Source of the DNA: Clostridia bacterium
GTDB taxonomy: Bacteria; Bacillota; Clostridia; Lachnospirales; Lachnospiraceae
DNA length: 64,000 bases
Reading direction: 5' to 3'
Assembly (NCBI GenBank): GCA_026000945.1
Contig: BNZI01000004.1
Span: 14,176 to 78,175 of the forward strand
Shown piece after piece: positions 5,955 through 30,321 of the stretch. A model generated the notes under the pieces. That model saw only the letters and a program-made list of their open reading frames with translations, was not told the origin of the DNA and ran no database searches. Every line of letters begins with the position of its first letter. Position 1 is the stretch's first letter. The position numbers and the translations under genes were made by a program.

Positions 5955-5995
5955 GATTGATTTACCTCTTTCCTCTTTCATAATGTTAAATTGAT

Positions 5996-6856: not shown

Positions 6857-6960
6857 AAGCGATTATTCATCACGCATTTTTCAGCGTGTATCCTTTCATG
6901 ATAAATACTTTACTTTTTTACTTAAAGATTGTTTCCCTCTCATCCTCAGTCAATGCTTTC

Positions 6961-7959: not shown

Positions 7960-7972
7960 ATTATTTCGGAAA

Positions 7973-8749: not shown

Positions 8750-9101
8750 CTCTAACCCTCCGTACATCAATCTACCATGATCATGGTCATCATGGTCGCA
8801 CAGACTGCGGCGTACATATGTGAACTCTTTATGCAATCGTATGCGATGATACCAATATGATCAATTTTCTGTGTTATCTTTTTCTGTTTTTTCATGTCTC
8901 ATGAAAATTTTCTATTCTCTTTTAAAAATTCGCCTTACAGATATTCCTTATTTTTACATAATTTAAACAATAATAAAAATACCACCGATAAAGTACTGAA
9001 TATCATCTATTTTTGTCCTATATCCGTAATGCCTTACCATAAATACATTTAACACTTGCTTAGAATATTTCATATACATGGCGCATTCCAGATAAAAGAA
9101 G

Positions 9102-9404
9102 CTATTCAGTATCTGCTGCCCTCCTATAAATTGTTTGTACAGAATGTTCCAGAAATGTAATCAAATCATGTAAATAACGAGAAACTCTAATAACAATATC
9201 TTTAACAACTTCTTCCGTCGTTTCTAGAATTATCCACTTGCCTGCATCCGCTTAAGGACATGCTGTTTTCGATATGCTCCACAAACCTTCTTGTTTTAAA
9301 ATTTTATTTTTTAAAAACTGTAAACATTTCTCTGTGGATAAAAGATTGTCTTTGCTTCTATTCTTCATATTTTTTGAGTGATGATAAGGAATTTTAGTTT
9401 TCAT
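9102..9404 (-). pseudogene. Unrecognised small gene with an in-frame stop
   Basis: AGGAGA precedes an ATG at 9404 that opens a 50-codon frame (MKTKIPYHHSKNMKNRSKDN and on) ending in TAA at 9254-9252. The same frame then runs 49 further sense codons (with ETTEEVVKDIVIRVSRYLHD) to TAG at 9104-9102. Together they look like one protein of about 100 residues broken by a point mutation. I do not recognise the family. The flanks 8837-9101 and 9405-9477 hold nothing I can name except a lone DnaA-box-like TGTGGATAA at 9333-9341. Confidence 0.35.
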
Positions 9405-9477
9405 GATAAAAAATTCTCCTGTTCTTTGATTTTCTTATGTTAGTAAATTATTTTACGCTGTAAAACAAATATGTAAA

Positions 9478-9511
9478 AGACTATACTTCCATAAAAATGG
9501 AAGTATAGTCT
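9478..9511 (-). terminator. Perfect 15-bp hairpin, possible terminator
   Basis: AGACTATACTTCCAT (9478-9492) pairs perfectly with ATGGAAGTATAGTCT (9497-9511) around a four-base loop. On the minus strand it is followed by TTTTAC, a weak T tract. It lies downstream of the large repeat protein and its decayed 3' segment, so it is a reasonable end for that transcript. Confidence 0.5.
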
Positions 9512-9547
9512 AAATAATACCTAAATTAGAGTATTTAGGTATTATTC
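9512..9547. repeat. Second adjacent inverted repeat
   Basis: AATAATACCTAAAT (9514-9527) pairs with ATTTAGGTATTATT (9534-9547) around a six-base loop, directly next to the hairpin at 9478-9511. The pair may act together as a transcript end or RNA-stabilising structure downstream of the repeat protein. Confidence 0.4.
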
Positions 9548-9554
9548 CAATTAT

Positions 9555-9772
9555 TTAATATGGAATCCCTCCATTCCAAAATATATCACTAACACGTAAT
9601 TCAGTTACTTTATCTAATAACTCTTGAACATTGGGATCACTTTCTCCTAAAGTAGTTATATCTTATCCAACGTATTACTTAATCCAGAATTAGCTTCTCT
9701 CCAACTAGTTATTTCAACTGATAAATCTGGATTATTTAATTCAAATAATACATCTTCTAATGAAGTCAACGC
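9555..9772 (-). pseudogene. Decayed C-terminal segment of the Ser-Asp repeat protein
   Basis: Directly after the TAA (9775-9773) that ends the repeat protein, the same frame continues with protein-like sequence ([20 protein letters not shown], then [18 protein letters not shown]) to a TAA. A one-base shift then restores [20 protein letters not shown] and RVSDIFWNGGIPY, followed by a stop at 9557-9555. This looks like a former C-terminal domain of about 75 residues cut off by a nonsense mutation plus a frameshift. Alternatively it is the remains of a separate small gene. I do not recognise the domain. Confidence 0.5.
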
Positions 9773-12700: not shown

Positions 12701-13666
12701 CGAAGAACTTAAAGCTCTCGTAGCTGATGCAGGAGCATAGAATAATTTATCGTTCAATTCTTCTGCGTGTAAACGCACTAATCCAGAAAGCATCGTTCCA
12801 TTGACATCAAAACCATAGTCTTTTCCATTTACTGTTTTGATGCTACCTGATGCAGATCCATTTCCTACATAAGGATTTCCTTTTTTATCTACGTAATACC
12901 AATAAGTATCGCCCCCATCATCATCAGGAGCCGCTTGTTTCAACCATGTACTTTTCTTAACTGAACCATCTTCCGCACCACCTGCAAAGACTACCTCTGT
13001 TCTTCCATCAGGTGTAATTTCTTCCTCATAAGAAGAAAAAGCTTCCTTATCTACCCAACCATAAAGCATACGACCGTCATCATCAAAAAGGTAACTTTTT
13101 TGGTTAATAGTTCTCTCTGCTGAGACAACCTTTTTTCCTTTGGCATCAAAGTAATACCAATCGGTTTCTCCCTCATCATCTGCCAGTTTAGCCCATTGAT
13201 TCACTTGTCTTGAGCCATCTTCGGCACTACCATAATAATAGTCATCTATCCAGTCATATTCCATTGCGCCACAAACATTAAAGGAATAAATTTTTCCATT
13301 AATTGTTGCTGTTTGTTCTTTTAACATTTTTCCATCAGAACCAAAGTAAAACCACCTTACCTCCCCGTTCATATGTGCGCAAGGTAGCTTTCTCCATTGG
13401 TTAAGAACTCTTTCTCCCCAAGTATCTACATAATAAGTATCATCAATGACTTGAGAGGTTAGTACTTCTCCATTTTCGCCTAAATAATAGTATTTTTGGT
13501 TTTCTCCAACTTTCCATTGATTTTTCAATGCGTCATTACCGTCATAGAAATACCAATTGCTTCCTTCTTGCACCCAGCCTACAGCAGCGAAGACATTCAT
13601 ACTTGCAGTAGCACTCAGTACACCGGCAGCACCTAAAATTGCAGCCCATTTAGTTTGTTTTCTCAT
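9773..13666 (-). CDS. Secreted cell-wall-binding protein with giant Ser-Asp and Thr-Asp-Gly-Asp repeats
   Basis: A 1297-residue surface protein. Residues 1-27 are a Sec signal peptide ([12 protein letters not shown]... ending VFA-A). Residues about 29-430 are tandem aromatic/Gly cell-wall-binding repeats ([35 protein letters not shown]), the choline-binding type of repeat that anchors proteins non-covalently. A linker (about 430-510, [20 protein letters not shown]) leads to about 650 residues of (SD)n with scattered T, then about 33 copies of TDGD, ending TTGTL. There is no LPxTG sorting signal, so anchoring should be N-terminal. SD stalks occur in staphylococcal adhesins, where they are glycosylated; DTDGD resembles Ca2+-binding Asp loops. 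Both are analogies. AAGGAG lies 5 bases before the ATG. Repeat number may be unstable or misassembled. Confidence 0.88.
9790..10187 (-). repeat. About 33 tandem 12-bp units encoding TDGD
   Basis: On the coding strand the unit is GAYGGNGAYACN with third-base variation only, giving an invariant Thr-Asp-Gly-Asp repeat apart from one Ile substitution. Synonymous scatter with a fixed protein repeat suggests selection on the protein, or repeated duplication of already varied units. Confidence 0.9.
10188..12138 (-). repeat. About 1.95 kb of 6/18-bp Ser-Asp repeats
   Basis: The dominant higher-order unit is an 18-bp block (plus-strand reading CTATCTGAATCGCTGTCG) encoding six alternating Ser/Asp residues. 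Variants swap in Thr at regular places, and two short stretches carry Gly (SDGDSD). The 6-base periodicity with few stop-prone codons leaves other frames on both strands open over more than 2 kb. Confidence 0.9.
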
Positions 13667-17299: not shown

Positions 17300-17932
17300 C
17301 TAAGAAAAATATTGACTTTCCAACATTAGACACCACGTGTGATAAATAGGCAAATGTAATTCCTGAATTTTGTACGTTTCTTCTTCAGGTGCGATAACGG
17401 ATACATCTGCTAAATTAGCTAGTTTTCCTCCATCCTTACCACTTAATGCAATGACTTTGAGTCCTTTTGCTTTGGCTGTCACTGCTGCCAATAAAACATT
17501 GCGAGAGTTCCCCGAAGTAGATATACCTAAAAAAACATCCTCTGCTTGTCCGTATCCATACACCTGTTGGGCAAAAACGGATAAACCATCTATATCATTT
17601 AAATATGCTGTCGTTAAAGCAAAATGATTAGATAAAGAGATAGCAGGCAAAGCCCCTTGTAACTTTTTAGATAGCTCTTTTCCCATTTCTTCATCTACGG
17701 CAAGCAATTTTTGAGTAAAGTCTTCTTTGACTGCTCGAGGAAGAACAAAACCTTTCATCAATTCTCCTACCATATGGTCAGAATCCGCACTGCTTCCTCC
17801 ATTTCCTGCAATCAAAAGTTTTTTCCCCTGATCATAAGCTTTGGACATAAAATGATACGCAGCTTCAATCTGTTCTTTGATCTCTGCCAATTTTGGATAT
17901 CTATTGATTAATTCTTCTAAATGTTTATGCAT
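17300..17932 (-). CDS. gmhA: Phosphoheptose isomerase (SIS domain)
   Basis: Converts sedoheptulose 7-phosphate to D-glycero-D-manno-heptose 7-phosphate, the first step of activated heptose synthesis. The 210 residues carry the SIS fold with LLIAGNGGSSADSDHMVGELMKGF, the GISTSGNSRNV phosphate loop and the C-terminal YKIQELHLPIYH helix that supplies catalytic Gln/His in GmhA. The start at 17932 (MHKHLEEL) has AAAGGA seven bases upstream; longer starts at 17938 or a GTG at 17974 are less likely. A 190-base gap separates it from gmhB, but the order gmhA/gmhB/hddC is that of a GDP-heptose cluster. The enzyme is well known from Gram-negatives and from the S-layer glycans of some Gram-positives. Confidence 0.9.
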   Translation of the reverse strand: MHKHLEELINRYPKLAEIKEQIEAAYHFMSKAYDQGKKLLIAGNGGSSADSDHMVGELMKGFVLPRAVKEDFTQKLLAVDEEMGKELSKKLQGALPAISLSNHFALTTAYLNDIDGLSVFAQQVYGYGQAEDVFLGISTSGNSRNVLLAAVTAKAKGLKVIALSGKDGGKLANLADVSVIAPEEETYKIQELHLPIYHTWCLMLESQYFS

Positions 17933-18122
17933 CCTCATTTCCTTTCCAGTCTTTCCAATTTTAAAATTGACCACAACCCAAGTCTAAATCCAGTAAATTC
18001 TTAGTTCATCGTCTGTTGCAATCAAGAAAACAATCGTCTTACCTAGAGTGTAGATCTTCCTCGTATCCTATGGTATAAGCAGTATGCATCTTATACATCT
18101 TTTGCTTGATCTTGCAAATTTT

Positions 18123-18680
18123 TTATTTTTCCTTCGCTAAAATCCATTCCACGGCTTCAGCTAAATTTTCAGCGCAATACAAATAATCCTTTTCCAGCTG
18201 TTTTTCTACACTTTTGCCATGACCCGTTCTAACTAAGATGGAGGGTATACCAAAATTTTTAGCTGCCAAAATATCACCTTGATTGTCCCCAATCAGAAAA
18301 GACTTTTTCCGATCAATGAAAAAATCTGTACAAGCCCTCTCCAGCATTCCAACATTTGGCTTTCTGCAAAGACACTCTTTTTTATACTTTCCTTTTCCTT
18401 GTGGATGGTGAGGACAGTAATAAAAACGGTCAATCTGCACGGACTGTTTAAAAAGGCATTGATTGATATAGGAATGCAAAAGTTGTACATCACTTTCCGT
18501 ATAGTACCCCCTTGCAATCCCCGCTTGATTCGTAACCACCAACAATAAATACCCAGCTTTTTTTAATTGTGCTAAAGCTTCAGGCACTCCCGGAATAAAG
18601 GCAAATTTTTCTATTTCATAAAGATAATTTACTTCTTCATTGATCGTACCATCCCGATCTAAAAAAATTGCTTTTAACAT
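18123..18680 (-). CDS. gmhB: D-glycero-D-manno-heptose 1,7-bisphosphate 7-phosphatase
   Basis: A 185-residue HAD-superfamily phosphatase that removes the 7-phosphate from heptose 1,7-bisphosphate. HAD motif I is FLDRDGTIN, motif II VVTNQAGIARG and motif IV IGDNQGDILAA. The zinc-binding loop typical of GmhB is present as YYCPHHPQGKG...ECLCRKP (Cys/His ligands). The ATG overlaps the stop of the nucleotidyltransferase upstream by one base (TAATG), so the two are translationally coupled. Length and motifs match the family closely. The anomer handled cannot be read from sequence, but the hddC-like neighbour favours the alpha route toward GDP-heptose. Confidence 0.92.
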   Translation of the reverse strand: MLKAIFLDRDGTINEEVNYLYEIEKFAFIPGVPEALAQLKKAGYLLLVVTNQAGIARGYYTESDVQLLHSYINQCLFKQSVQIDRFYYCPHHPQGKGKYKKECLCRKPNVGMLERACTDFFIDRKKSFLIGDNQGDILAAKNFGIPSILVRTGHGKSVEKQLEKDYLYCAENLAEAVEWILAKEK

Positions 18681-19423
18681 TATAATAAATTCAACACTTT
18701 CATATCTTCTACAAATTGAAAATAATCATGAGGCACACCGATGTCCATAAAATAACCCTCTCTAACTAGTCCTCCTATTTTCTTTTGCGGATCTTCCAAA
18801 ATTTTTGGGAAAATCTCTTGTTCCAAAGAAATTTTCTGCTGCGCTGGAATCATATTCAATAAATCTTTTTTGATGTAGTATACTCCTCCGTTAATCAAAC
18901 CCGTTTTTCTTGGTGTATCCAAAGAACCTAATTCTTGATGTGATTTTTTTACTTGAGGTTCACAAAATTCTGTAATCCGATTTCCTTCCAATAACACTTG
19001 ACCATATCGGGAAATGTCTTCCACTTCTCTCAATACCATAACTGCATCAAAGTTTTCACTTTCCGCTAAATTTTTTAGCTGAATGTAAGAAAACTGAAAA
19101 AAAGTATCCGCATTGAGTAAAAAAAATCGATCCTGCAAAAACGGCTCAGCTTGTTTGATTGCCCCCGCTGTACCTAATGCTTCTTTTTCTTTGGAATATT
19201 GAAAATGCATTCCATAGCTTTCTCCTGAACCAAAATATTCCTGAATCATTTCTCCACGGTAACCAATAGCAAAAAGAATCTCTAAAATCCCATTTTGTTT
19301 TAATTGGACTAATAGGTAATGCAAAAAAGGATGCTGATCCACCATTGCCATTGGCTTTGGACGATCTGATACCACTGACTGTAAACGGGTTCCAAACCCT
19401 CCCGCTAATAATACTGCTTGCAT
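18680..19423 (-). CDS. hddC: Sugar-1-phosphate nucleotidyltransferase, probable heptose 1-phosphate guanylyltransferase
   Basis: A 247-residue cytoplasmic nucleotidyltransferase with the Rossmann signature LLAGGFGTRLQSVVSDRPKPM, the sugar-binding EALGTAGAI and the metal-binding NADTF, plus the second Asp near YFMDIGVPHDYFQF. Clustering and translational overlap with gmhB, and closeness to gmhA, point to HddC, which makes GDP-D-glycero-alpha-D-manno-heptose. The kinase HddA that makes the 1-phosphate is not in the window. A generic NDP-sugar pyrophosphorylase is the alternative if the pathway is incomplete. The ribosome site is weak (GGTGAAAGT before the ATG). Confidence 0.85.
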   Translation of the reverse strand: MQAVLLAGGFGTRLQSVVSDRPKPMAMVDQHPFLHYLLVQLKQNGILEILFAIGYRGEMIQEYFGSGESYGMHFQYSKEKEALGTAGAIKQAEPFLQDRFFLLNADTFFQFSYIQLKNLAESENFDAVMVLREVEDISRYGQVLLEGNRITEFCEPQVKKSHQELGSLDTPRKTGLINGGVYYIKKDLLNMIPAQQKISLEQEIFPKILEDPQKKIGGLVREGYFMDIGVPHDYFQFVEDMKVLNLL

Positions 19424-19581: not shown

Positions 19582-22500
19582 CTAAGCAAAATCTTCCTCA
19601 ATTAATCGCCACGCACTTTCTACACTATAGTATCTTTTCACATATTCTAATCCATTATTTGACATACTAGATAAAGTTTGTACATCTGAATATAAAGAAA
19701 GAATTTTCTCTGCCATTTGCATAGGTGAATCTATCACTTCCATGACACTTTCTGCCCCTAAAATACCTTCCGCTCCTACGGAAGTAGTCACGACTGGTAC
19801 ACCATAATAAAGTGCCTCAATGATTTTTCCTTTAACTCCCGCTCCATACCGTAAAGGTACAACAGACATACGGCACTCCTTATACAAGCGTTTCAATTCA
19901 TCTTCTGGAACATAACCCCTTACATGAATACCTTTTTGTCCATTCTCATGCTTTTCATCTAATTCTTCTATTTCTTTCGGCACTTGTGAACCAGCAATCA
20001 CCAAAGGAATTTCTTGCTCTCTAGAAATAAGAGGATAAATTTCTTTGCAAAACCATAACATAGCATCTTTATTTGGTAAATGGGTAAAACCACCAACAAA
20101 AAGCATTCCTTTTCTTTTTTCCATATCTTCTGCGAAAATATGTTCCTCACTAAAATGCTCAAAAATATAAGGTCTGATTGCCTTAACTGCCAAAGAAGCG
20201 TCAATCACTTCAATCGCTTTAATTTCAATAACAGACGGGTAATAAGAAATATCCATTTTAGATAATAACGCTAATTCCATTAACTTTATACTATCTGCAA
20301 ATTTTCTTTTTTCTTCATCACCTGTAAGTTTATATTCCCTATATTCTCTTAAAAAATGCAGATCATGTCCATAATAAATTAATTTTATCTGCGTATAATC
20401 TCTTAAATAATCTACATATTTTGAAGCAATATGCGGACGATTCAAATAAGCAAATTGAATAAAATCTTTATGCTGTTGTATCCAATCCCAAATACCCGAT
20501 TCATATTGCGCACCGTATAGGACTTCAATACCCATTTGTTGTAACTGTGTCGTGTACGGCTCTTCTTTTAAGTAGTTATCAGTAATAAATTTTACGATAA
20601 AACCTTTTTGTAAAAAAAGCTTTAAATACTGAAAAGTTGTCTTAGAACCTGCGTCTTGATCAAAGCGCGGCACGTAATGATCTACAAATAAAATAAATTT
20701 TTTCTTTCCCGCTCTTTCTTTTGCTAAAAAAAGATTAGCTTGCGGATCTGGAGGATACTGTTTTTCAAACTCATCTTTCCATTTTTCTACTAATTTTTTC
20801 GTATTTTCTACCTGATAAGCCTTTATTCCTGTTTCTTCATCTTTCCCATGAGAAATTCCCTCGTGATGAACCACCACAGACAAAGGTTGGTATACGACTT
20901 GTAAACCCTTTTTTCTCACAGAAAAGGCTAAATCTGAATCTTCACAATAAGCCGGCGCATAGCGTTCGTCAAAGCCGCCTATTTCTTCCCATAAATTTTT
21001 AGGAAGTAAAATGGAAGCCCCAGAAAGATAATCCACTTCTCGTACATAGTTATATTCTTCTTTAGTCGGATCATCACCTCGTCCGTAATTCCATCCGCTT
21101 CCATCACTCCATAAAATCCCTCCGGCTTCCTGCAATTTCCCGTCCGGATAGACTAGCTTAGAACCCACCATACCGATTTGACTATTGGATTCAATTAAAT
21201 CCACTAAAGATCTTAGCCAGTTTTCACAAACTTCGGTATCATTATTTAAAAATAGCAAATATTGACCTTTTGTCGCTTTCGCTGCTTCATTACAACTTTT
21301 TAAAAAACCAAGATTTTTCTCCCAATGTATAATCCTTACATTTTTCGTATAACGTTCTAAATCTTTTGTTGCATCATCAGAACAATCGTCCGCCACGACC
21401 ACTTCATAAGAAATATTTTTCGTATTCTTTAAAATAGACAAAAGACAAGCATAAGTATAATGAATTTGGTTATAGACCGGAATGATAATACTTACTTTTG
21501 GTTTTTCCTCAATAGAAAATTCCAAAACACCATGTTCCAAATATCCGGAACCAATATTAAAATCACCTTGAATTTTATTTCTGCCTTCTTCCGATAAATA
21601 TAACTTGGTGCTTTTGATCGGGTGCAAAAGACTTTTCTTGGTATAACTTAAAAATTTTCTTTTCTTTGAACCAACTGGCAAAACATTACTCATCTGCTCT
21701 TTCACGGTTTGTTTTGCTTTACTACTTAATGATTCATGTTCTTTATAATACTCAATTTGTTGTTTTTGTTCCTCTGACTTTGTATTTAAGTCTAAAATCA
21801 TACTTTCTAAATTTTGTACATGGTTTTGCGTTAAACGGTATTTCTCCTGTACTTGACGCAATTGATAATTTCTTTCTTTTACTTCTGCTTGCAGTTCCAA
21901 TATTCTTTCTAGCTGTTCTTGTATTTTCCCTTCCGCTTTTTGTAAATCAGAAAAATAACTTTTTTCTTGTGCATATTTTACTAAGTAAGCATCTTCTCTA
22001 CCTAAGCCATGAACATACTCTTGAAAATGATTCTCCATATCTTGATAGAGATCTAACTTTTCTAGAGAGATACCAAATTCAGCTAAAAATTCTAGCATAC
22101 TATCATATTTTAAAATGTCCTGGTAATGCAAGTAAAAATAATATAGCATCCGGTAAGTGATAAATTCAACTGGTATAGGGAAAGGGAATACCCATTCATA
22201 GTCTAAACAAATAAATCCATCTCCCGCCACTAAAATATTATCAAATAAACAATCAATATTAGATATTTTCAGTGCAGGCGTATCAGGGGGAAATACCTGT
22301 TCTCCAAATACCTGTACAAAATGCTCACTCAAGGAAAAATTTACTTGATATTCTTTTTTAACATCAAAAATAAGATGCAAGACACTGCGAAGATTTTGTA
22401 AAAACTCCTTGGGGTTTTGCGTTTGGATATTTTCATACAGACAATGAGATAAAAGCTTTCCTTCCACATAAGGGTATCTCATCGCCCCATCATATAAAGA

Positions 22501-22701
22501 AGGCTTTAACAATTCAATATTTTCATTGCAATTTTTCATTTTTTCATATTTAATTGCAAATGACTGTATATGCACTTTTCCGATTTCATGTAAAGCTGCT
22601 TTTTCTACATAAATAACCCCATTTTCTTCATATATAGTCGTTTTTAATTGAAATTGTTTTTTACGCATTTTGTTGTATTTTACAAATTTAATTTGTTGCA
22701 T
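19582..22701 (-). CDS. Large fusion: kinase-like domain, coiled coil, GT2 and GT4 glycosyltransferases
   Basis: A 1039-residue protein with no signal peptide. Residues 1-245 are a kinase/phosphotransferase-like domain: a lysine strand near FAIKYEK, a catalytic-loop pattern NIDCLFDN (D150, N155, as in HxDxxxxN) and LDYEW (D167) in place of DFG. Residues 250-330 are a heptad-rich coiled coil. Residues 400-640 are a GT2 domain (VSIIIPVYNQ, DDCSDD, NNDTE, acceptor-side ED at 587-588). Residues 665-1039 are a GT-B domain with VPLRYGAGVKGKIIEALYYG. It lies 25 bases after a methyltransferase and next to Wzt/Wzm. The MT-kinase-coiled-coil order matches WbdD, the chain-terminating protein of O9a-type O-antigens. 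A terminating or length-setting role is inference; the glycosyltransferase role is well supported. Confidence 0.85.
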   Translation of the reverse strand: MQQIKFVKYNKMRKKQFQLKTTIYEENGVIYVEKAALHEIGKVHIQSFAIKYEKMKNCNENIELLKPSLYDGAMRYPYVEGKLLSHCLYENIQTQNPKEFLQNLRSVLHLIFDVKKEYQVNFSLSEHFVQVFGEQVFPPDTPALKISNIDCLFDNILVAGDGFICLDYEWVFPFPIPVEFITYRMLYYFYLHYQDILKYDSMLEFLAEFGISLEKLDLYQDMENHFQEYVHGLGREDAYLVKYAQEKSYFSDLQKAEGKIQEQLERILELQAEVKERNYQLRQVQEKYRLTQNHVQNLESMILDLNTKSEEQKQQIEYYKEHESLSSKAKQTVKEQMSNVLPVGSKKRKFLSYTKKSLLHPIKSTKLYLSEEGRNKIQGDFNIGSGYLEHGVLEFSIEEKPKVSIIIPVYNQIHYTYACLLSILKNTKNISYEVVVADDCSDDATKDLERYTKNVRIIHWEKNLGFLKSCNEAAKATKGQYLLFLNNDTEVCENWLRSLVDLIESNSQIGMVGSKLVYPDGKLQEAGGILWSDGSGWNYGRGDDPTKEEYNYVREVDYLSGASILLPKNLWEEIGGFDERYAPAYCEDSDLAFSVRKKGLQVVYQPLSVVVHHEGISHGKDEETGIKAYQVENTKKLVEKWKDEFEKQYPPDPQANLFLAKERAGKKKFILFVDHYVPRFDQDAGSKTTFQYLKLFLQKGFIVKFITDNYLKEEPYTTQLQQMGIEVLYGAQYESGIWDWIQQHKDFIQFAYLNRPHIASKYVDYLRDYTQIKLIYYGHDLHFLREYREYKLTGDEEKRKFADSIKLMELALLSKMDISYYPSVIEIKAIEVIDASLAVKAIRPYIFEHFSEEHIFAEDMEKRKGMLFVGGFTHLPNKDAMLWFCKEIYPLISREQEIPLVIAGSQVPKEIEELDEKHENGQKGIHVRGYVPEDELKRLYKECRMSVVPLRYGAGVKGKIIEALYYGVPVVTTSVGAEGILGAESVMEVIDSPMQMAEKILSLYSDVQTLSSMSNNGLEYVKRYYSVESAWRLIEEDFA

Positions 22702-22726
22702 AAATCCTCCGGCTTCCCCCTTTTTT

Positions 22727-23635
22727 CTACATTGTACTAAAAATCAAAAAGGAATTCGCAAAATATTCAAATTGTCCATCTTCACATAACTGCTTGTATA
22801 CTGCTTCTTCATTGAATAACTGGTATCTTTTCCGATCATAAGTCACACTAACATTTCCAATATCCCCTTTTTGAGGTAAATACTGCTCTGAATACACAGT
22901 ATCCGGCAATTTGTAATCTGGCAAAGGATAATAGAAAGTGTTTTTTTGAAAACCACCTTGCTTTAATAACTTACAAATTTCTGGTTTCGATAAAGTACGT
23001 ACATGTGACGTAGTCGGATAATTTTCTATACTTTCAAAAAACTTCCCTGTATGGTCTTCTGCCGCTCCTGAAAAATATTTTAAACCAAACTTATTTTCTA
23101 TTGCAATGATTAATGTCCCTTGAGGCTTTAAGTAACTTTTAGCTAAGTCCAGCATTTTTAAAAAAGGCTCTTCTCCCGTACTCATATAACTTGGTGCATA
23201 TTCTAAAACACCGATAAGTGTAACAAAATCAAATTTTTCTTCCAAGTGAACATCTTCTAGATTTCCTACCATAATTTCTAAGTTCTGATATTTTCCATGA
23301 CGCAAGGCATTAATACTAGAACGTCTTTTTGATAAATCAATACCTACTACCCGCTGTAATTTCCGGCAAAATAGACCCGTCAATGCTCCACAACCTGATC
23401 CAATTTCTAATAAAGTTCCGGATTTAGGAAAATCAAACCACTCTAATAAATTTTCCCTCATATCCGAAAGATGATACAAAATTGCCCATTCTGAATTCTT
23501 TTTGACCACTTCATCTAAACTATCCGGATATTTTTTGCACAGCTCCATCAGCTGTTCTTCTACATCCCCATCGCTATAAATATCTTCCCCTGGATAAAAT
23601 GTTAAGTTCAATACTTTTTGGATATACTCTTCCAT
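22727..23635 (-). CDS. SAM-dependent methyltransferase in the polysaccharide cluster
   Basis: A 302-residue class I methyltransferase. SAM-binding motif I is LLEIGSGCGALTG (residues 75-87), with acidic D100 ending the next strand in VVGIDLSKRR, followed by EKFDFVTLIGVLEY and LIIAIENKFGLKYFSG. The NKFGLKYFSGA signature is common in methyltransferases beside glycan-export genes. The ATG follows GAGGG with 7 bases. It lies between wzt and the kinase-like fusion protein with gaps of about 15 and 25 bases, clearly in one operon. Capping of the glycan's non-reducing end by methylation (possibly of a phosphate added by the neighbouring kinase-like domain) is the attractive hypothesis; internal sugar methylation is the alternative. 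Confidence 0.85.
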   Translation of the reverse strand: MEEYIQKVLNLTFYPGEDIYSDGDVEEQLMELCKKYPDSLDEVVKKNSEWAILYHLSDMRENLLEWFDFPKSGTLLEIGSGCGALTGLFCRKLQRVVGIDLSKRRSSINALRHGKYQNLEIMVGNLEDVHLEEKFDFVTLIGVLEYAPSYMSTGEEPFLKMLDLAKSYLKPQGTLIIAIENKFGLKYFSGAAEDHTGKFFESIENYPTTSHVRTLSKPEICKLLKQGGFQKNTFYYPLPDYKLPDTVYSEQYLPQKGDIGNVSVTYDRKRYQLFNEEAVYKQLCEDGQFEYFANSFLIFSTM

Positions 23636-23649
23636 TCTCCTACCCTCAT

Positions 23650-24978
23650 CTATTCTAGTATTACCCTAACTTGTGAATCCATATCAAAAATACCAACAGT
23701 ATTTTTATTGGAAATAACTGTAATATTTAAAATGTCATAAAGTCTTTGTAAAACAACAAACTTCCCCTCTTCAAAACCCGTGCATCCTAAAGAAATGAGA
23801 TACTCTCCTCCTTGAAGCTGCATTTTTTGTGTAAAAGATACGATATAACAAGAACCTTTTTCCACTTTTTCAAGCTGTTTTTCTTCAATAAGTGTATTTG
23901 TTCCTGAAATTTCTGTTCCCATCTTATCTTTAATCGTAAAAGCAAAAATAGGAGAAACAAAATTTTCATGAAAATGCACTTTCATTTTAACGGTAAACTC
24001 TTCATTTTTCATTACCAAATTTGTAATTTCTTCATTTTCATTGAAAAGAGCAAAATCAATAATTTCTCCTCTACCATCCCCATAAGGTTTGACTTGCCTA
24101 TTCCAATTGATTTCTTCTTTCCACAATAAATTTTGGATATTTTTCTCATTTTTCTTAGAAAACGTAGGTTCTTTTTTCAAGCTAGCCTGTGACAGAGATA
24201 ATTGTTCTTCCCAATTTTTATTTTGCTCTTGTTGTTGATCTGGATCATACTGATTGACTAATATTTTTTTATAAACATCTACTACTTCTTTTGGGCTGGC
24301 ATCCATCACCAGTTTCCCTTGATTAAATAAAATCGTGCGATGACAATATTTTAAAATACTACCCATATCATGAGTCACCATTAAAATAGTTGTTCCAGAT
24401 TTTCGGATTTCTTCCATGCGTTTATAACATTTTGCTTGAAAAAAAACATCACCTACGGATAAGGCTTCGTCTACAATTAAAATCTCTGGTTCTACATTGA
24501 TCGCTAAAGCAAAAGCCAAACGTACAAACATACCACTAGAATACGTTTTGACCGGCTGATGTACAAATTCTCCAATATCAGCAAAATCCAAAATTTCCGG
24601 CAACTTTTTGGTCATCTCTTGCTTACGGTAGCCCATCATTGTACCATTCATATAAATATTTTCTACGCCAGTATAATCCATATTAAAACCTGCGCCAAGC
24701 TCCAAAAGGGCGGAAATCTTTCCTTGTATTTTTACTTCTCCATTTGTAGGAGAAAGTACACCGGTAATAATCTTTAAAATCGTAGATTTACCTGCTCCAT
24801 TCGTACCAATAATGCCTACTGTTTCCCCTTTTTTAATTTGAAAGGAAATATCTTGCAAAGCATAAAAATCCTGATGATAAGAACGCCTAGAAAACTGCAA
24901 GGATTCCTTCAAACGGTCGATCGGCTTATGATATAGCTGATAAACCTTGTTTACTTGGCTTACCTGTATGGCATACAT
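23650..24978 (-). CDS. wzt: Polysaccharide ABC transporter ATP-binding protein with C-terminal glycan-recognition domain
   Basis: The nucleotide-binding half of a Wzm/Wzt exporter, 442 residues. Walker A is GTNGAGKST (58-66), the signature is YSSGM (146-150), Walker B is ILIVDEA, and the switch histidine lies in VTHDMG. This ATPase part resembles TagH and Wzt. Residues about 290-440 form a Wzt_C-type beta-sandwich (RGEIIDFALFNENEE ... FAFTIKDKMGTEISGTNT), which in O9a-type systems binds the capped end of the glycan before export. The presence of this domain, absent from simple TagH-like ATPases, argues for a chain-terminated glycan. AAGGAG precedes the ATG. The permease lies 90 bases upstream. 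Confidence 0.92.
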   Translation of the reverse strand: MYAIQVSQVNKVYQLYHKPIDRLKESLQFSRRSYHQDFYALQDISFQIKKGETVGIIGTNGAGKSTILKIITGVLSPTNGEVKIQGKISALLELGAGFNMDYTGVENIYMNGTMMGYRKQEMTKKLPEILDFADIGEFVHQPVKTYSSGMFVRLAFALAINVEPEILIVDEALSVGDVFFQAKCYKRMEEIRKSGTTILMVTHDMGSILKYCHRTILFNQGKLVMDASPKEVVDVYKKILVNQYDPDQQQEQNKNWEEQLSLSQASLKKEPTFSKKNEKNIQNLLWKEEINWNRQVKPYGDGRGEIIDFALFNENEEITNLVMKNEEFTVKMKVHFHENFVSPIFAFTIKDKMGTEISGTNTLIEEKQLEKVEKGSCYIVSFTQKMQLQGGEYLISLGCTGFEEGKFVVLQRLYDILNITVISNKNTVGIFDMDSQVRVILE

Positions 24979-25068
24979 TTTTTACTCCTTAATCAAGTAT
25001 TACGAAAATCGATCATCAGCTGAAACTTAAGTCAGCAGTTAATTTGAGACAGAAAAATTCTTAACAGG

Positions 25069-25878
25069 TTAAAGTACATCAGAAAAATGCGGTTTCATCT
25101 TCATAAATAAACGATATCCCACAGTAAATAACACAACAACAACGCCCCAAAAGTAAAGGGCCAACAAAGGTCTTTCCCAAAATGCCTTGCCTAAAAGCAT
25201 ACTTTCCCGATACCCGTTCATAAAATAGTAACTTGGATTAAACTTTACCACTGCTTGCAATACTGGATAAAAAGAACGTCCCTCAAACATATCTAAATTC
25301 CACATAATTGGGATTAGCCACATGCCGAATTGTAAAATAATACTGATAATCTGCTGTATATCTCGAAAAAAAGCATAAACTGCACTACTTAAATACACAA
25401 TCGCCAAAGAAAACATACTTGCCGCAAAGCTATAATAAAGTATACCTAACCAATAAAGCGAAGGAACTACCTGATAAAGAAAAAAAGTGATTAGCATAAT
25501 CAGAATAAAAATAACATGCACGAAATAAGCTGAAAATAATTTAATTAACGGCAATACTTCGATAGGAAAAACCACTTTTTTTACCAAATAATGGTATTCA
25601 TGCAAACATCCTACTCCTACATTCAAGCTATCACTTAAAAAAAACCAAGGAATCATCCCAGAAACTAACCAAAGCACATAAGGAATTCCTTCATAGGGGG
25701 CCGGGCTACGAAAACCCACCCCAAAAATCAAAACATAAATCAAAATCGTCACTAAAGGCTGAATAAATTTCCACGCCAAACCAAAATATGAACCTACAAA
25801 CTGCTTACGAAAATCTGATTTTGATAATTCCCAGATCATCTGTCCATGTTTTTTTACTGCTCTCCCCAAAGACAACAT
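25069..25878 (-). CDS. wzm: Polysaccharide ABC transporter permease
   Basis: The membrane half of the exporter, 269 residues, with an ABC-2 type core of about six membrane helices. The N-terminal SDFRKQFVGSYFGLAWKFIQP and the segment MIPWFFLSDSLNVGVGCLHEYHYLVKKVVFPIEVLP are characteristic of Wzm/TagG/KpsM permeases. It should move lipid-linked glycan across the cytoplasmic membrane together with the adjacent Wzt. Its ATG has AAGGAG five bases upstream and follows rfbC by about ten bases, so rfbC, wzm, wzt, the methyltransferase and the large fusion gene are probably one transcript. Confidence 0.92.
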   Translation of the reverse strand: MLSLGRAVKKHGQMIWELSKSDFRKQFVGSYFGLAWKFIQPLVTILIYVLIFGVGFRSPAPYEGIPYVLWLVSGMIPWFFLSDSLNVGVGCLHEYHYLVKKVVFPIEVLPLIKLFSAYFVHVIFILIMLITFFLYQVVPSLYWLGILYYSFAASMFSLAIVYLSSAVYAFFRDIQQIISIILQFGMWLIPIMWNLDMFEGRSFYPVLQAVVKFNPSYYFMNGYRESMLLGKAFWERPLLALYFWGVVVVLFTVGYRLFMKMKPHFSDVL

Positions 25879-25887
25879 CAGCTCTCC

Positions 25888-26442
25888 TTATTCACGTGGC
25901 AAATCGGATAATTTTCCCCATTTCTGGTCTTTTTCAGAAATGAGCAAAGTCATTCCCTCTAAAACAGGCCACTGTATATTAACTTCTGGATCATCAAACG
26001 CCAGTCCACCTTCGTCATTCGGATGATAAAAATCCGTACACTTATAAGCAAATTCAGCTGTCTTAGATAAGACCAAAAATCCGTGAGCAAATCCTGGAGG
26101 GATATAAAATTGCTTTTGGTTTTCAGCAGACAAAATCACTCCAAAATGCTGTCCATAGGTCCGTGAATTTGGGCGTAAATCTACAGCTACATCATAGACT
26201 TCTCCAGAAATTACTCGAACTAATTTCCCTTGTGGAAATTTTTTTTGAAAATGTAAGCCCCTTAACACTCCATAAGCAGACATAGACTGATTATCCTGTA
26301 CAAAATGTGCAGTTAGACCTAATTCCTGATATTTTTGTTCATGATAAGTTTCTAAAAAATACCCCCGTTCATCACGGTAAATTGTGGGTTCAATGACGAG
26401 TAAACCCTCTATATCATTTCTACTAACTCGAATATTTGACAT
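25888..26442 (-). CDS. rfbC: dTDP-4-dehydrorhamnose 3,5-epimerase
   Basis: A 184-residue cupin epimerase, third enzyme of dTDP-L-rhamnose synthesis. Recognised by YRDERGYFLETYHEQKY, the QDNQSMSAYGVLRGLHFQ stretch containing the catalytic His, VRVISGEVYDVAVDLR and YIPPGFAHGFLVLS. Length and motifs are typical. No rfbA, rfbB or rfbD appears in the window, so either those lie elsewhere or this enzyme serves a related dTDP-sugar. The nearby rhamnosyltransferase-like GT2 supports rhamnose. It is the first gene of the wzm-wzt operon, directly downstream (in transcription) of a MITE-like element. Confidence 0.93.
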   Translation of the reverse strand: MSNIRVSRNDIEGLLVIEPTIYRDERGYFLETYHEQKYQELGLTAHFVQDNQSMSAYGVLRGLHFQKKFPQGKLVRVISGEVYDVAVDLRPNSRTYGQHFGVILSAENQKQFYIPPGFAHGFLVLSKTAEFAYKCTDFYHPNDEGGLAFDDPEVNIQWPVLEGMTLLISEKDQKWGKLSDLPRE

Positions 26443-26526
26443 ATTACTTTATCTCCATTAAATTTATTCCGTCAAAGGAAAATCTTTAGCTATTATAAAG
26501 GTTTAGCCTTTTCTTGTAAAGCTAGG

Positions 26527-26833
26527 ACGTATTTACACTACCGCGAAGTGTCTATCTTTTGGATAGATTTTGTGCTGGTCTGTATTTAAAGCCTGTTTTC
26601 ATATCTCCCTTACGGAAGAATATTGGTCTATTTTCCCTTCTATGGTTCCTTAAATGCCTTGAAATACTTCTAGTATTCCAGCTCACCTCTTGGTGTAGGA
26701 AAAAACTATACACAAATACTCCTTGCCCGAAAATACTAAATAAGCTCTTGATTTTCTTGAAATACGCATGCTTGTCTGAAAAAATTTGCCTTGCAGGCAA
26801 AAATCCGGGCATTTCGAACAATAAGAACACTCC
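26527..26833 (-). mobile_element. MITE-like element, about 307 bp (inverted copy)
   Basis: Ends resemble those of the copy at 34931-35243: ACGTATTTACACTAC at 26527-26541 against GCGTATTCACACTAC there, and a degenerate AGTGTTC end near 26833. The interior (26601-26700, minus strand) carries the shared core with GAGGTGA, GTATTTCAAGG, CACCGTAGRAGGGAAAATAGACCA-like sequence and TTCTTCCGTAAG. It has no convincing gene. It fills the gap between the GT2 gene and rfbC together with about 80 bases of unremarkable flank. Confidence 0.6.
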
Positions 26834-26852
26834 CTAGAGATTGAATTAAGCG

Positions 26853-27788
26853 TTATTCTTTGTTCCAATATTCTTTGTTCATACTTAATGCTCGAACCCA
26901 TTTAGTCGGCAAACGCCGGTATTCCTTGCCCAAGCGATATCCTAAGTATTTTGCCCCAGTTTGAGCAACCAACGGAAAAATTTCTTGAACATAGCCATTT
27001 TTTATACAGCCTCTTAAAACATCAAGCACATATTTCTTTCCCTCATCTTCGGAAGATACAGAAGAAAAAATACTTGCATATTCGGCTTGTGATACGCCAA
27101 TATCAAAATTTCTCATGAATTGCTCTTTTAGCGTGTATTGATGAAAATGTCGCACTTTCGCTTTAGCACAATAAGCAATGCGATATCCTGCTTGAACCGC
27201 TTTCGCCGCAAATAACATATCTTCATTAAAAATTGTTTTTTCCGGAAACCCCTGTAATTCTTCCCAAACCTCTTTGCGATACATTGCACAAGCATTAGAA
27301 GCAAAAAACGTCTTGATTCCCAAACGAGATAAATCTTTTTTACTTTTATTCTGACTCTTTTTCGGATAATTAAATAAACGACTATTTTTTTCTAAAAAAC
27401 TTGCTTCTTTTCCCGCAATTTGCCTAGCATAAGAAATTGCCGTTCGTTTTTCTCCTTTTAAAAAAGGCTGGATCAATTCTTCAACTAAATAAGGATTTAC
27501 TGGAACAGCATCCTGTGTCATCAACAAAACCAAATCTGTACGACTAAGCCCTACGCCTAAATTTCTTGTCCCTCCATGATCGAAATCTTCTTTGCGAAGA
27601 TGCCTAAGATAAACATTTGGAAAAACTCTTTTAATTTTCTCTTTTAACTTCGCCTTTTCAAAATATTTCTCTTCTGTATTCATTAAAATTAATTGATGAA
27701 TCGGATAAGTTTGTTTAGCTAAATTTAAGATTAAAGTTTCAAATCTTTTATCCGGTTTGTATGTAGGAATAATTACACTAACCTGCAC
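26853..27788 (-). CDS. Rhamnosyltransferase-like GT2 glycosyltransferase
   Basis: A 311-residue cytoplasmic glycosyltransferase that should add a sugar, plausibly rhamnose, to the growing lipid-linked glycan. The GT-A family 2 features are VSVIIPTYKPDKRF at the N-terminus, the FDHGGTRNLGVGLS substrate loop, the LLMTQDAVPVN strand in the DxD position, and FNEDMLFAAKAVQAGYRIAY with the catalytic acidic pair. The FDHGGTRN...MTQDA combination is typical of rhamnosyltransferases. The start is GTG at 27788 with AAAGGAG seven to eight bases upstream. A MITE separates it from rfbC and a DnaA-box cluster lies upstream, so it may be in its own transcription unit. Confidence 0.87.
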   Translation of the reverse strand: MQVSVIIPTYKPDKRFETLILNLAKQTYPIHQLILMNTEEKYFEKAKLKEKIKRVFPNVYLRHLRKEDFDHGGTRNLGVGLSRTDLVLLMTQDAVPVNPYLVEELIQPFLKGEKRTAISYARQIAGKEASFLEKNSRLFNYPKKSQNKSKKDLSRLGIKTFFASNACAMYRKEVWEELQGFPEKTIFNEDMLFAAKAVQAGYRIAYCAKAKVRHFHQYTLKEQFMRNFDIGVSQAEYASIFSSVSSEDEGKKYVLDVLRGCIKNGYVQEIFPLVAQTGAKYLGYRLGKEYRRLPTKWVRALSMNKEYWNKE

Positions 27789-27850
27789 TGTATTCTCCTT
27801 TTTCTTTGCGGCAAAATATCTTCCTCAACGGAAATTGAAAAAAATTGAGT

Positions 27851-27954
27851 TATCCATTGAGTTATCCACAATATTTAACTTATTTCTGTGGATTTTGTGG
27901 ATAAAGTAAAATAAATTAATCAATTATTGTGGATAAGTCGCTTTTTATCAACAG
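27851..27954. promoter_or_regulatory. Cluster of DnaA boxes
   Basis: Three perfect matches to TTATCCACA (27863-27871 plus; 27897-27905 and 27929-27937 as TGTGGATAA) and three near matches (TTATCCATT 27851-27859; TGTGGATTT 27888-27896; TTATCAACA 27946-27954) lie within about 105 bases of the flippase-GT2 gap. The density is far above chance. dnaA and dnaN are not nearby, so this may be a titration or regulatory site rather than the replication origin. Confidence 0.65.
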
Positions 27955-29222
27955 AAAATCAAAATTAAAAAAGTTATACATAAAATAAACATTAATAAAA
28001 AATGTGAAAAAGCTGCTCCAACCAAGCCATAAAATTGCACACCAAACGGACAAAGTACTAAACTAAATAAAAAAACGAGCAAATAAACAATAAGAATATT
28101 TCGTTGTTTTTCTCGAGCTACCAAAGCATAATAGAAAATCGTATTAAAAGCATTAACAATACCACCTAAAATAATCCATAGCAATACCAAAATATACTGA
28201 TTCAAATTTTTATGATAAATCCAACCTAAAACTTGCACGCCTAGTGTAACAGACAATAATATAGCTAAAATTCCACAGCTAAATATAATCATACAAAGCC
28301 TCAAAACAGAACGCTGAAATTCTCTTTTTTGTCCATCTTTCCAATATTGCGCAAAAACAGAAATATAAGGACGAACTAAAAAAGCAGTCACTAAATTGAT
28401 GACAGAAGTAGGCATAAATAAAGTAGCATAATCTCCATATAAAGCTTTTTCTGCTTGAATTTCCACTGCATAACGTGAAGCACTGAATAAATAAATTTCT
28501 AAAAATCCACCTGCAAATAAAGAAAAAGATTGTTTGAAAATTTTTATACAATAAGCTAAGTCAAACTTTTCTCTACTTTGAATCAATTGTAAATCATGAT
28601 TTTCATCACTTTCTAAATTTTCTTTTTTCAATCGATTTTCTTTGTTTTCTTCTGATAAGCTTATTTGCCTTAAAGGTAGTACATTAAAAAGCCAAATCGA
28701 CACTATCGCTGCTACATTCAAGCAAACACAGGCCAATAAAATATTTTTACTTGTCCATAAAACAATTAAATATATACTAATCGCAAATAAAGTACGAAAA
28801 GCATTAGACTGACCAGTCAAAAATAAAAAACCTTTGCGCTGAAACTCACATTCATATACATCTGCAAAACCATCAAAAATTTTATAAGTCATCGTCAAGC
28901 AAATCACCCAAAAATCAATCGGCTGATACTGCCGGAAAGCTAAAAAAATTAGTCCAAAACCTAAAGAAATTAGACAACCGATAATACGCAAAAAAACATA
29001 CTCTCCAAAAAGGTATGTTTTTTTTACGTCAGTAATCTGCAAAGGACGCATACCCAAATACGAAATGTTCAACAACTGCTGTCCTAACGTACTCATACCA
29101 AAGAAAAAAACTCCTCCTATGGTATTTCCCATTAGGCGATTTGTTGCTACAGTAAATAGCATAGAGGAAAGGGCAAAAATTACACTTCCAGCAATATTCC
29201 AAAAAATATCTTTTTTACTCAT
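27948..29222 (-). CDS. Polysaccharide flippase-like membrane protein (Wzx/MATE-type)
   Basis: A 424-residue integral membrane protein with about 12 hydrophobic helices, a charged cytoplasmic loop near the middle (SEENKENRLKKENLESDENH) and the MOP-superfamily start KKDIFWNIAGSVIFALSS. Such proteins flip lipid-linked oligosaccharides outward. Its ATG lies inside the 3' end of glf (8-base overlap), so the two are translationally coupled. Having a flippase in the same cluster as an ABC exporter suggests two glycans or a side-branch building block. Sequence identity to true Wzx is low, as is usual, so the substrate is unknown. Confidence 0.82.
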   Translation of the reverse strand: MSKKDIFWNIAGSVIFALSSMLFTVATNRLMGNTIGGVFFFGMSTLGQQLLNISYLGMRPLQITDVKKTYLFGEYVFLRIIGCLISLGFGLIFLAFRQYQPIDFWVICLTMTYKIFDGFADVYECEFQRKGFLFLTGQSNAFRTLFAISIYLIVLWTSKNILLACVCLNVAAIVSIWLFNVLPLRQISLSEENKENRLKKENLESDENHDLQLIQSREKFDLAYCIKIFKQSFSLFAGGFLEIYLFSASRYAVEIQAEKALYGDYATLFMPTSVINLVTAFLVRPYISVFAQYWKDGQKREFQRSVLRLCMIIFSCGILAILLSVTLGVQVLGWIYHKNLNQYILVLLWIILGGIVNAFNTIFYYALVAREKQRNILIVYLLVFLFSLVLCPFGVQFYGLVGAAFSHFLLMFILCITFLILIFC

Positions 29223-30321
29223 GCAATTCTTTTTGGGCTAAAGCTAAAGCTGATTCTATCACTTTATCCATATCGTAATACTTATACTCCGCTAATCTTC
29301 CACCAAATAAAATTCTTTTCTCCTGCTCCGCCAAACGTGCATAATCCTGATAAAGTTTTTGATTTTTTTCATTATTGATCGGATAATATGGTTCTAAACC
29401 TTTTTCCCATACTGCCGGATATTCTCTTGTAATAACCGTCTTATCTTGCTTACCAAAATCAAAATGTTTATGTTCAATAATACGGGTATAGGGCACTTCT
29501 TTTTCAGTATAATTAATAACCGCATTTCCCTGAAAATTCTGCATATCCAAAACTTCTGTTTCAAAAGATAAACTGCGATATTCCAAAGCACCAAAACAAT
29601 AATTATAAAATTCATCAATCATTCCAGTATATAAAATTTTCTTACCCATTTCATTATAGGTAGTTCTTTTTTCTAAATAATTGACATTACATTCAATATC
29701 ACAGCCTTTTAGCAATTCCTGAATAAGATGGTTATACCCCTGCGTCGGAATTCCTTGATACGTATCCTCAAAATAATTATTATCAAAAGTATATCTTACT
29801 GGTAAACGCTTGATGATAAAGCTCGGTAGGTCTTTGCACGAACGTCCCCATTGTTTTTCTGTATAACCTTTAATTAAAATTTCATAAATATCTTGTCCCA
29901 CTAGATAAATGGCTTGTTCTTCTAAATTTTTCGGCTCTTTTTTTGCTTTCTTACGTTGTGATTCAATTTTTTCTTTTGCTTCCTGAGGTGTCTTTGTTCC
30001 CCACAAAGTATAAAAAGTGTTCATATTAAATGGAAGATTGTAATATTTTCCTTTATAACAAGCCATAGGTGAATTGATAAAACGGTTGAATTTCACAAAC
30101 TGATTGACAAAATCCCAAACTTTTTGATTGCTCGTATGAAAAATGTGCGCACCGTACTGATGCACAGATATACCTTCAATTTCTTCACAATAGATATTAC
30201 CGCCTATATGGCTTTTTTTCTCTACAACAAAACACGTTTTTCCTTGTTTAATTGCCTCATGGGCAAATACAGCGGAAAAAAGCCCGCTTCCTACTAAAAC
30301 ATAGTCATATGTTTTCAACAT
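29215..30321 (-). CDS. glf: UDP-galactopyranose mutase
   Basis: A 368-residue flavoenzyme that converts UDP-galactopyranose to UDP-galactofuranose. The FAD-binding motif is VLVGSGLFSAVFAHEA with VEKKSHIGGNIY. The diagnostic Arg/Tyr-rich active-site stretches include YTEKQWGRSCKDLP, RLPVRYTFDNNYFEDTYQGIP and TREYPAVWEKGLEPYYPIN, and the C-terminus has FGGRLAEYKYYDMDKVI. Length is typical. AGGAGGAAAA precedes the ATG. It implies galactofuranose in the surface glycan. It overlaps the flippase gene downstream. Confidence 0.96.
   Translation of the reverse strand: MLKTYDYVLVGSGLFSAVFAHEAIKQGKTCFVVEKKSHIGGNIYCEEIEGISVHQYGAHIFHTSNQKVWDFVNQFVKFNRFINSPMACYKGKYYNLPFNMNTFYTLWGTKTPQEAKEKIESQRKKAKKEPKNLEEQAIYLVGQDIYEILIKGYTEKQWGRSCKDLPSFIIKRLPVRYTFDNNYFEDTYQGIPTQGYNHLIQELLKGCDIECNVNYLEKRTTYNEMGKKILYTGMIDEFYNYCFGALEYRSLSFETEVLDMQNFQGNAVINYTEKEVPYTRIIEHKHFDFGKQDKTVITREYPAVWEKGLEPYYPINNEKNQKLYQDYARLAEQEKRILFGGRLAEYKYYDMDKVIESALALAQKELHE

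Follow-up and report, generated by a model that had tools for sequence, protein, structure and literature searches.

How does a Gram-positive bacterium that exports a surface glycan through an ATP-binding cassette (ABC) transporter measure the chain, close it and recognize that it has been closed? The question is raised by a stretch of 64,000 nucleotides (the window: positions 14,176 to 78,175 of contig BNZI01000004.1, assembly GCA_026000945.1) from a member of the Lachnospiraceae that is probably gut-dwelling and whose genome is 68% complete. A first-pass annotation had proposed there, downstream of the exporter genes wzm and wzt, a split terminator resembling WbdD of Escherichia coli O9a, with kinase and ruler built into the polymerising enzyme. 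The gene set and positions it reported were confirmed, namely wzm, a Wzt_C-bearing wzt, a methyltransferase gene and a multidomain gene of 1039 amino acids (aa), all on the minus strand. The best explanation of these four genes (25878-19582), and one that we consider probable, is a module that assembles and exports a cell-surface polysaccharide in a cap-dependent way. The features on which the argument draws are the following (GT, glycosyltransferase).

25069..25878, minus strand: wzm, permease component (ABC-2 type) of the glycan exporter (PF01061, 40.6 bits, cut-off 26.9)
23650..24978, minus strand: wzt, exporter ATPase with a C-terminal carbohydrate-binding domain (ABC_tran and Wzt_C above their cut-offs)
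23680..24087, minus strand: Wzt_C domain spanning residues 298-433 and predicted to read an anionic cap (Pfam 136.8 bits, cut-off 30.4)
23743-23745, minus strand: codon of Arg412 in Wzt_C, aligned with Trp362 of Aquifex aeolicus (profile alignment)
22727..23635, minus strand: stand-alone S-adenosylmethionine-dependent methyltransferase, 302 aa (Pfam methyltransferases above cut-off; aligns with the N-termini of 29 fused relatives)
22706..22710, minus strand: GGAGG, a motif resembling a ribosome-binding site, in front of the kinase-GT gene (sequence)
19582..22701, minus strand: kinase - coiled coil - GT2 - GT4 protein, 1039 aa (Pfam, AlphaFold2)
21967..22701, minus strand: APH-type kinase domain, residues 1-245, with K34, D150, N155 and D167 (predicted fold, alignment)
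21682..21954, minus strand: long helix predicted to form a coiled coil, residues 250-340, putative ruler (AlphaFold2, heptad test)
20782..21492, minus strand: GT2 domain, about residues 404-640 (PF00535, 87.9 bits, match at 404-525)
19600..20724, minus strand: GT4 domain of two lobes, about residues 660-1034 (PF13692, 88 bits, second lobe, 864-1006; first lobe by alignment and by eye)

Transcription runs from wzm through wzt and the methyltransferase gene to the 1039-aa gene, with intergenic gaps of 90, 14 and 25 bases, the last exactly as first reported. Within the 25-base gap the GGAGG motif stands four bases 5' of the ATG of the 1039-aa gene. A sequencing frameshift as the cause of the split between methyltransferase and kinase was rejected; we take the split as real because the second gene has its own ribosome-site motif and the same split occurs in other genera.

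The kinase is the part least visible to annotation. For residues 1-245 Pfam returned no kinase family and NCBIfam returned none among 25 of 33 rows, so the kinase call of the first pass went further than annotation did. Structure prediction, chosen beforehand as the test that could refute this call, bore it out: the AlphaFold2 model of residues 1-345 (mean pLDDT 86.9) predicts, with good confidence, a kinase fold for residues 1-245 and one helix for residues 250-340. The predicted fold is of the APH type and is accompanied by the catalytic Lys, Asp-xxxx-Asn and Asp of such enzymes. These residues (K34, D150, N155 and D167), which had been expected to be conserved among orthologues, do not vary in any of the 78 aligned proteins; among 37 diverse kinases K34 and D167 are kept in all 37, N155 in 36 and D150 in 35, and the kinase of locus L055 is the sole case with both D150 and N155 lost. 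Locus L057 holds two adjoining methyltransferase-kinase proteins (10207-12120 and 5905-10206), the first of which has D150 replaced by Gln and is perhaps decaying or regulatory. Homology searches said little about the origin of the domain. Compared with Protein Data Bank (PDB) sequences, the kinase profile gave chance-level matches only. WbdD was absent from the best 50 structural matches listed for the kinase model, an absence that excludes nothing, and a structure search with the model of the fused relative P0104 filled its list with methyltransferases and hence was silent on the kinase part. A contig scan with the whole 1039-aa protein found only two planctomycete GT fragments.

The methyltransferase shows how closely its activity is bound to that kinase. 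Methyltransf_23, 11, 12, 25 and 31 all score above the Pfam cut-off in the 302-aa protein. Among the best 120 of 196 homologues listed, 28 exceed 1200 aa, and the window methyltransferase aligns with the N-terminal part of each of them and of P0104 (29/29), at 28-38% identity over 275-301 columns. Relatives thus hold methyltransferase and kinase as one polypeptide, with the Wzt_C subtype following the kinase, and 'split' is the apt term for the window, as the first-pass annotation had it. We read 41 loci (the window plus 40 from 46 other kinase-bearing genomes, six being left out), which contain 42 kinase proteins, 19 split and 23 fused; 41 of the 42 have the methyltransferase in the same chain or in an adjacent gene, and L055, with neither methyltransferase nor Wzt_C subtype in the 12 kb read, is the sole kinase without one. 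The capping activities have been joined repeatedly: the kinase tree (55 rows) requires at least eight changes between split and fused, three of them forced by well supported branches. Layouts include the split form with GTs, as in the window, methyltransferase-kinase proteins, often with an added beta-rich-looking domain and with GTs separate, the split form without GTs, and everything in one chain (e.g. L062, L065). The beta-rich-looking domain, which has an LRIDP motif and spans about 110-130 residues, lies C-terminal to the kinase in 18 of the 42 kinase proteins, e.g. L066 and L072, and Pfam gave no match to it in the four proteins scanned (L045, L049, L066, L072). At least 120 matches to a methyltransferase-kinase-beta profile cover 97-100% of the query; the search gave 4292 matches of 7998 scored, and those beyond the 120 listed may match the methyltransferase part alone.

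The kinase is tied as tightly to the exporter. The Wzt was confirmed to carry the C-terminal domain noted in the first pass, and across 145 genomes of the window's kin, its own included, kinase and Wzt_C occurred together in 42, kinase alone in 5, Wzt_C alone in 15 and neither in 83 (Fisher P = 2.7e-18; the weak kinase matches G005, G130 and G089:C222 were excluded prior to counting). Where Wzt_C scored above 120 bits, a threshold picked after the data were seen, a kinase lay within 6 kb in 40 of 42 cases (median about 990 bases), and for the remaining two it was on another contig of the same genome; at or below 120 bits the figure was 0 of 27. Scores to the window Wzt_C ran from 126.6 to 339.6 bits at 35 kinase loci and reached at most 28.1 bits at 20 kinase-less loci, the latter being 20 of the 27 weaker matches, with seven dropped. 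The Wzt_C subtype was present on the same stretch for 36 of the 42 kinase proteins, and the survey of gene order that had been proposed showed wzm-wzt-methyltransferase-kinase recurring across the family (probably Lachnospiraceae). Since Pfam misses this kinase family, calls of kinase absence rest mainly on our own profile. Compared with solved structures, the profile of kinase-linked Wzt_C domains scored best with that of E. coli O9a (2r5o, 52 bits, E = 4.7e-13), then with A. aeolicus (41 bits) and 5hno (19 bits).

Downstream of the kinase, the coiled coil of about 80 residues claimed at first is present by prediction, with a length of about 91 residues instead, and the two glycosyltransferase domains are, by Pfam, a GT2 and a GT4. 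Heptad patterning of the helix exceeded that of shuffled sequences in 78 of 78 aligned proteins (0 of 500 shuffles for the window), and the spacer from kinase to GT2 is 169-170 residues in 72 of 77 relatives. In the mechanism that we propose, the C-terminal GT2 and GT4 would extend a lipid-linked chain until it outgrew the reach of helix 250-340, whereupon its non-reducing end would meet the N-terminal kinase and be phosphorylated, a step suggested by the fold, by the conservation of the catalytic residues and by what has been published on O7 and O9a. Methylation of the terminal phosphate by the separate methyltransferase would follow and growth would stop, so that we infer a methyl-phosphate cap at the glycan end; Wzt_C would bind this charged cap, as its homology to the O9a domain suggests, and license export by Wzm/Wzt.

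The same enzymes could act elsewhere on the glycan, the kinase and methyltransferase modifying internal residues or the linkage region (e.g. a phospho-methyl group on every repeat) and the helix merely tethering domains. Sharing one chain with the kinase, GT2 and GT4 make modification of each repeat feasible, and in Paenibacillus alvei a big multidomain enzyme is reported to attach glyceric acid phosphate to the S-layer glycan (PMC2943079; here and below, published systems are described from the available parts of the sources). We nonetheless regard internal modification as unlikely, given the tight link to one Wzt_C subtype that is close to the cap-binding O9a domain, the kept spacer length, and the same layout in biochemically proven terminators (PMC11231755).

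What the Wzt domain reads can be approached through one residue. In A. aeolicus, Trp362 of the Wzt domain stacks on a 3-O-methyl cap (PMC9445017); the chain numbering there is one higher, and we matched positions through five named pocket residues. At the aligned position, 412 in the window, all 35 kinase-linked domains have Arg, as do E. coli O9 and O99; O8 and O60 have Trp there, and 18 of 20 kinase-less Wzt_C domains an aromatic residue. Over the 18 columns that separate kinase-linked from the 20 kinase-less domains, O9 shares seven, O99 six, O60 three and O8 none, where kinase-less relatives, each left out in turn, share 0-18% of the discriminating columns. By profile, O9 and O99 have a methyltransferase and a WbdD-type kinase. 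The O9a cap is methyl-phosphate, and the WbdD of O8 is a plain methyltransferase (PMC3482155), so named by annotation and by that paper, our own profiles having missed it. Judged by these alignments, this puts the window Wzt with the methyl-phosphate readers.

Among further Bacillota loci (40, part of 48 non-window Wzt_C places, eight being dropped), Arg occupied this position in 8 of the 9 that have an anionic terminator (kinase 6/7, sulfotransferase 2/2) and in 0 of 30 where no such terminator was found (12 Trp, 11 Tyr, 1 Phe, 6 other), in a test that was not blinded and in which sulfotransferase joined the 'anionic' class after its Arg had been seen. With kinase as the sole criterion, Arg was present at 6 of 7 kinase loci (His at one) and at 2 of 32 others, both with sulfotransferase. 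Locus L107 (Arg) was set aside, as the kinase of its genome sits on another contig, and kinase calls were weak or manual at L118 (Pfam APH, 17.1 bits, cut-off 23.2), L124 and L126 (16 and 21 bits, with the motif recognized by eye) and L136 (by eye).

As in E. coli O8 or with Geobacillus WsaE, the chain could be capped by methylation alone, leaving the kinase-like domain an inactive scaffold. Pfam found a methyltransferase beside Wzt in 18 of the 21 scanned Wzt_C loci without a found kinase: for 14 of the 30 test loci without an anionic terminator, neighbours included a methyltransferase in 13, only GTs at L109 and a kinase in none, and for 7 of the 20 kinase-less loci a methyltransferase in five and neither in L082 and L085; at L087 such a neighbour even accompanies Arg. 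A scaffold would hardly keep the catalytic Lys, Asp, Asn and Asp invariant in all 78 aligned proteins and in at least 35 of 37 diverse kinases, and loci without a found kinase or sulfotransferase are mostly aromatic at the cap position (18/20; 24/30) where the window has Arg, making a methyl-only cap improbable in our view, more so than internal modification. Least probable of all is that the kinase makes another charged group, such as a phosphorylated sugar that is afterwards linked to choline or glycerol, as with LicA-type kinases, for a fold held in common does not reveal the substrate (scores are similar for APH, macrolide and AmiN kinases), no matching transferase was recognized by Pfam among nine cluster proteins scanned, and all but one of the 42 kinase proteins have the methyltransferase fused to them or adjacent.

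Returning to the capped-chain reading, the terminators of these loci look like exchangeable heads on one chassis of coiled coil, GT2 and GT4. The head is methyltransferase plus kinase in the window, methyltransferase alone in L111 (8052-11741) and L128 (8769-12401), and sulfotransferase in L114 (8121-11684; 25.2 bits, Pfam cut-off 27). L111 and L128 share the window's chassis without the kinase, have Trp at 412, and carry a much longer coil (about 260 residues, by eye); L114 adjoins an Arg-type Wzt_C. A sulfotransferase-coiled coil protein (Pfam just below cut-off) also stands beside an Arg-type Wzt_C at L115 (6554-7750). It is possible that the glycans of L114 and L115 are sulfate-capped, that of L114 then being an ABC-exported sulfate-capped glycan; in Aeromonas salmonicida a sulfotransferase adjoins Wzt, with no role assigned in the available part of the source (PMC4483657). 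Our tentative proposal, which we rate slightly short of an even chance, is that residue 412 of Wzt tells the charge of the cap (aromatic for neutral methyl, Arg for anionic) and that such heads are exchanged on the common chassis.

Several observations weigh against the capped-chain interpretation of the locus. On the tree, Arg and terminator type each change three times, with one independent pair on starred branches, a non-significant association in an independent-contrast test that is itself powerless. Individual loci depart from the rule: L087 has Arg with a methyltransferase only, L136 a kinase with His, and L130 (Ile, methyltransferase only) nests within the Arg group. A strict coiled-coil rule found a coil in 8 of 42 kinase proteins, compared with 5 of 472 other open reading frames (ORFs), and L057 supplies a second kinase without D150. 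Of the WbdD-like module claimed at first, the kinase fold (APH-type) stood and a sequence relation to the WbdD kinase was not seen, hhalign giving a probability of 0.6 for the 37-sequence kinase profile against one WbdD sequence. The fused P0104 model aligned with WbdD over 515-586 columns at a root-mean-square deviation of 15.9-17.5 and a TM score of 0.18-0.20 of the query, so that a like domain arrangement is not demonstrated by superposition. The whole reading, finally, is built on sequence and prediction. A convergent switch to Arg is an idea that we abandoned as a claim, the tree placing the Arg domains in essentially one group; these domains therefore point to common descent of a cap-reading type, not to repeated evolution.

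The kinase is present in 47 of the 145 genomes of the window's kin, and only 10 of 398 genomes of the phylum match its profile (the window's own included, several weakly), so that the family is seen mainly in the window's own family. In the proteins scanned, neither Pfam nor NCBIfam gives its domain a name, and fused members, among the names seen, are called only methyltransferase or hypothetical protein. If the capped-chain reading is true, export of glycans that are measured, capped and quality-checked, a scheme familiar from the O-antigens of Gram-negative bacteria and from some S-layer glycans, would be a common coating route in this Gram-positive family, and cap discrimination by Wzt becomes testable through one point mutation in a laboratory protein.

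Neighbouring genes bear on the sugars. Immediately downstream lies the following group.

17300..19423, minus strand: gmhA, gmhB and hddC homologues (GmhB above cut-off; HddC 185.6 of 300 and GmhA 135.8 of 209 bits, both below cut-off)

These possibly supply GDP-D-glycero-D-manno-heptose as donor for the GTs. An HddA-like GHMP kinase (125.9 bits, cut-off 600; L145, 1279-2262) is encoded on another contig, next to an undecaprenyl-phosphate sugar transferase; GDP-DD-heptose may therefore be made. Upstream, at 25888-30321 (minus strand), are rfbC, a GT2 gene, a membrane protein (27948-29222; no Pfam match, flippase-like by eye) and a UDP-galactopyranose mutase (29215-30321), and from these genes galactofuranose may be part of the glycan. 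About 3.6 kb past the gmhA end of the cluster, a 1297-aa protein (9773-13666, minus strand) with N-terminal repeats that by eye resemble cell-wall-binding ones, and with a Ser-Asp / Asp-Gly-Asp-Thr repeat tract of great length, is a candidate surface protein; the opposite-strand ORF at 9780-12266 is an apparent repeat artefact.

Among known systems, WbdD of E. coli O9a (PDB 4azs, 4uw0; PMC3482155) has the same order of methyltransferase, kinase and coiled coil as the window, and the coiled coil directly after the kinase, a WbdD feature, is predicted in the window as helix 250-340. WbdD, however, has methyltransferase and kinase in one chain where the window has separate genes, leaves polymerization to a separate WbdA where the window has GT2 and GT4 in the kinase chain, and has Pfam APH/Pkinase matches where the window kinase has none. 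Lacking both the one-chain methyltransferase-kinase and the separate polymerase, the window system is not WbdD proper, though its working layout is WbdD-like. The presumed wbdD of E. coli HS, directly after wzm-wzt, is likewise annotated only as a methyltransferase. By profile, the Wzt domains of A. aeolicus and E. coli O9a (2r5o) are the same domain as that of the window, with the Trp362 pocket of A. aeolicus (PMC9445017) opposed to Arg at the aligned position in the window, in O9 and in O99.

The head of WbbB, from Klebsiella pneumoniae O12, adds Kdo (3-deoxy-D-manno-oct-2-ulosonic acid). That protein unites terminator, coiled coil and polymerising GTs as the window protein does, with a glycosyltransferase as its head (PMC11231755). 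WsaE of the Geobacillus stearothermophilus S-layer glycan, Gram-positive and served by Wzm/Wzt export, fuses a methyltransferase terminator to two GTs; it is a Gram-positive precedent for a methyl-only terminator, no kinase being described in the available part of the source (PMC2943079). The nearest published design is ORF6 of K. pneumoniae O7 (methyltransferase-kinase-carbohydrate-binding module-coiled coil-GT2-GT2, ABC export), reported in 2024 with experiments in which methyl-phosphate was placed on terminal rhamnose in vitro and the catalytic Asp was required (PMC11231755). Its kinase, like the window's, was missed by annotation, the best fold match of the ORF6 kinase being AmiN (PMC11231755). 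On one chain and in the same order, both have the kinase, the coiled coil and two GTs, so the layout claimed at first, with kinase and ruler inside the polymerising enzyme, holds here but is no new design, O7 ORF6 preceding it. They differ in the methyltransferase (same chain in ORF6, separate gene in the window), in the Ig-like carbohydrate-binding module between kinase and coil of ORF6, which is absent in the window, where the helix starts about five residues past the kinase, and, compared by description, in the chain end (GT2-GT2 in the Gram-negative protein, GT2-GT4 in the window); the beta-rich-looking domain of 18 of the 42 relatives occupies the place of that module. A description of the Gram-positive terminator family was not found in the open-access literature, which was the scope of our search, and the Arg/aromatic rule was not met in print in a limited look that included the available parts of PMC9445017 and PMC6286764, its novelty being unproven. 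Set beside these systems, what looks new is an unannotated Gram-positive terminator family, with swappable heads on a GT2-GT4 chassis and an Arg/aromatic rule that follows essentially one clade.

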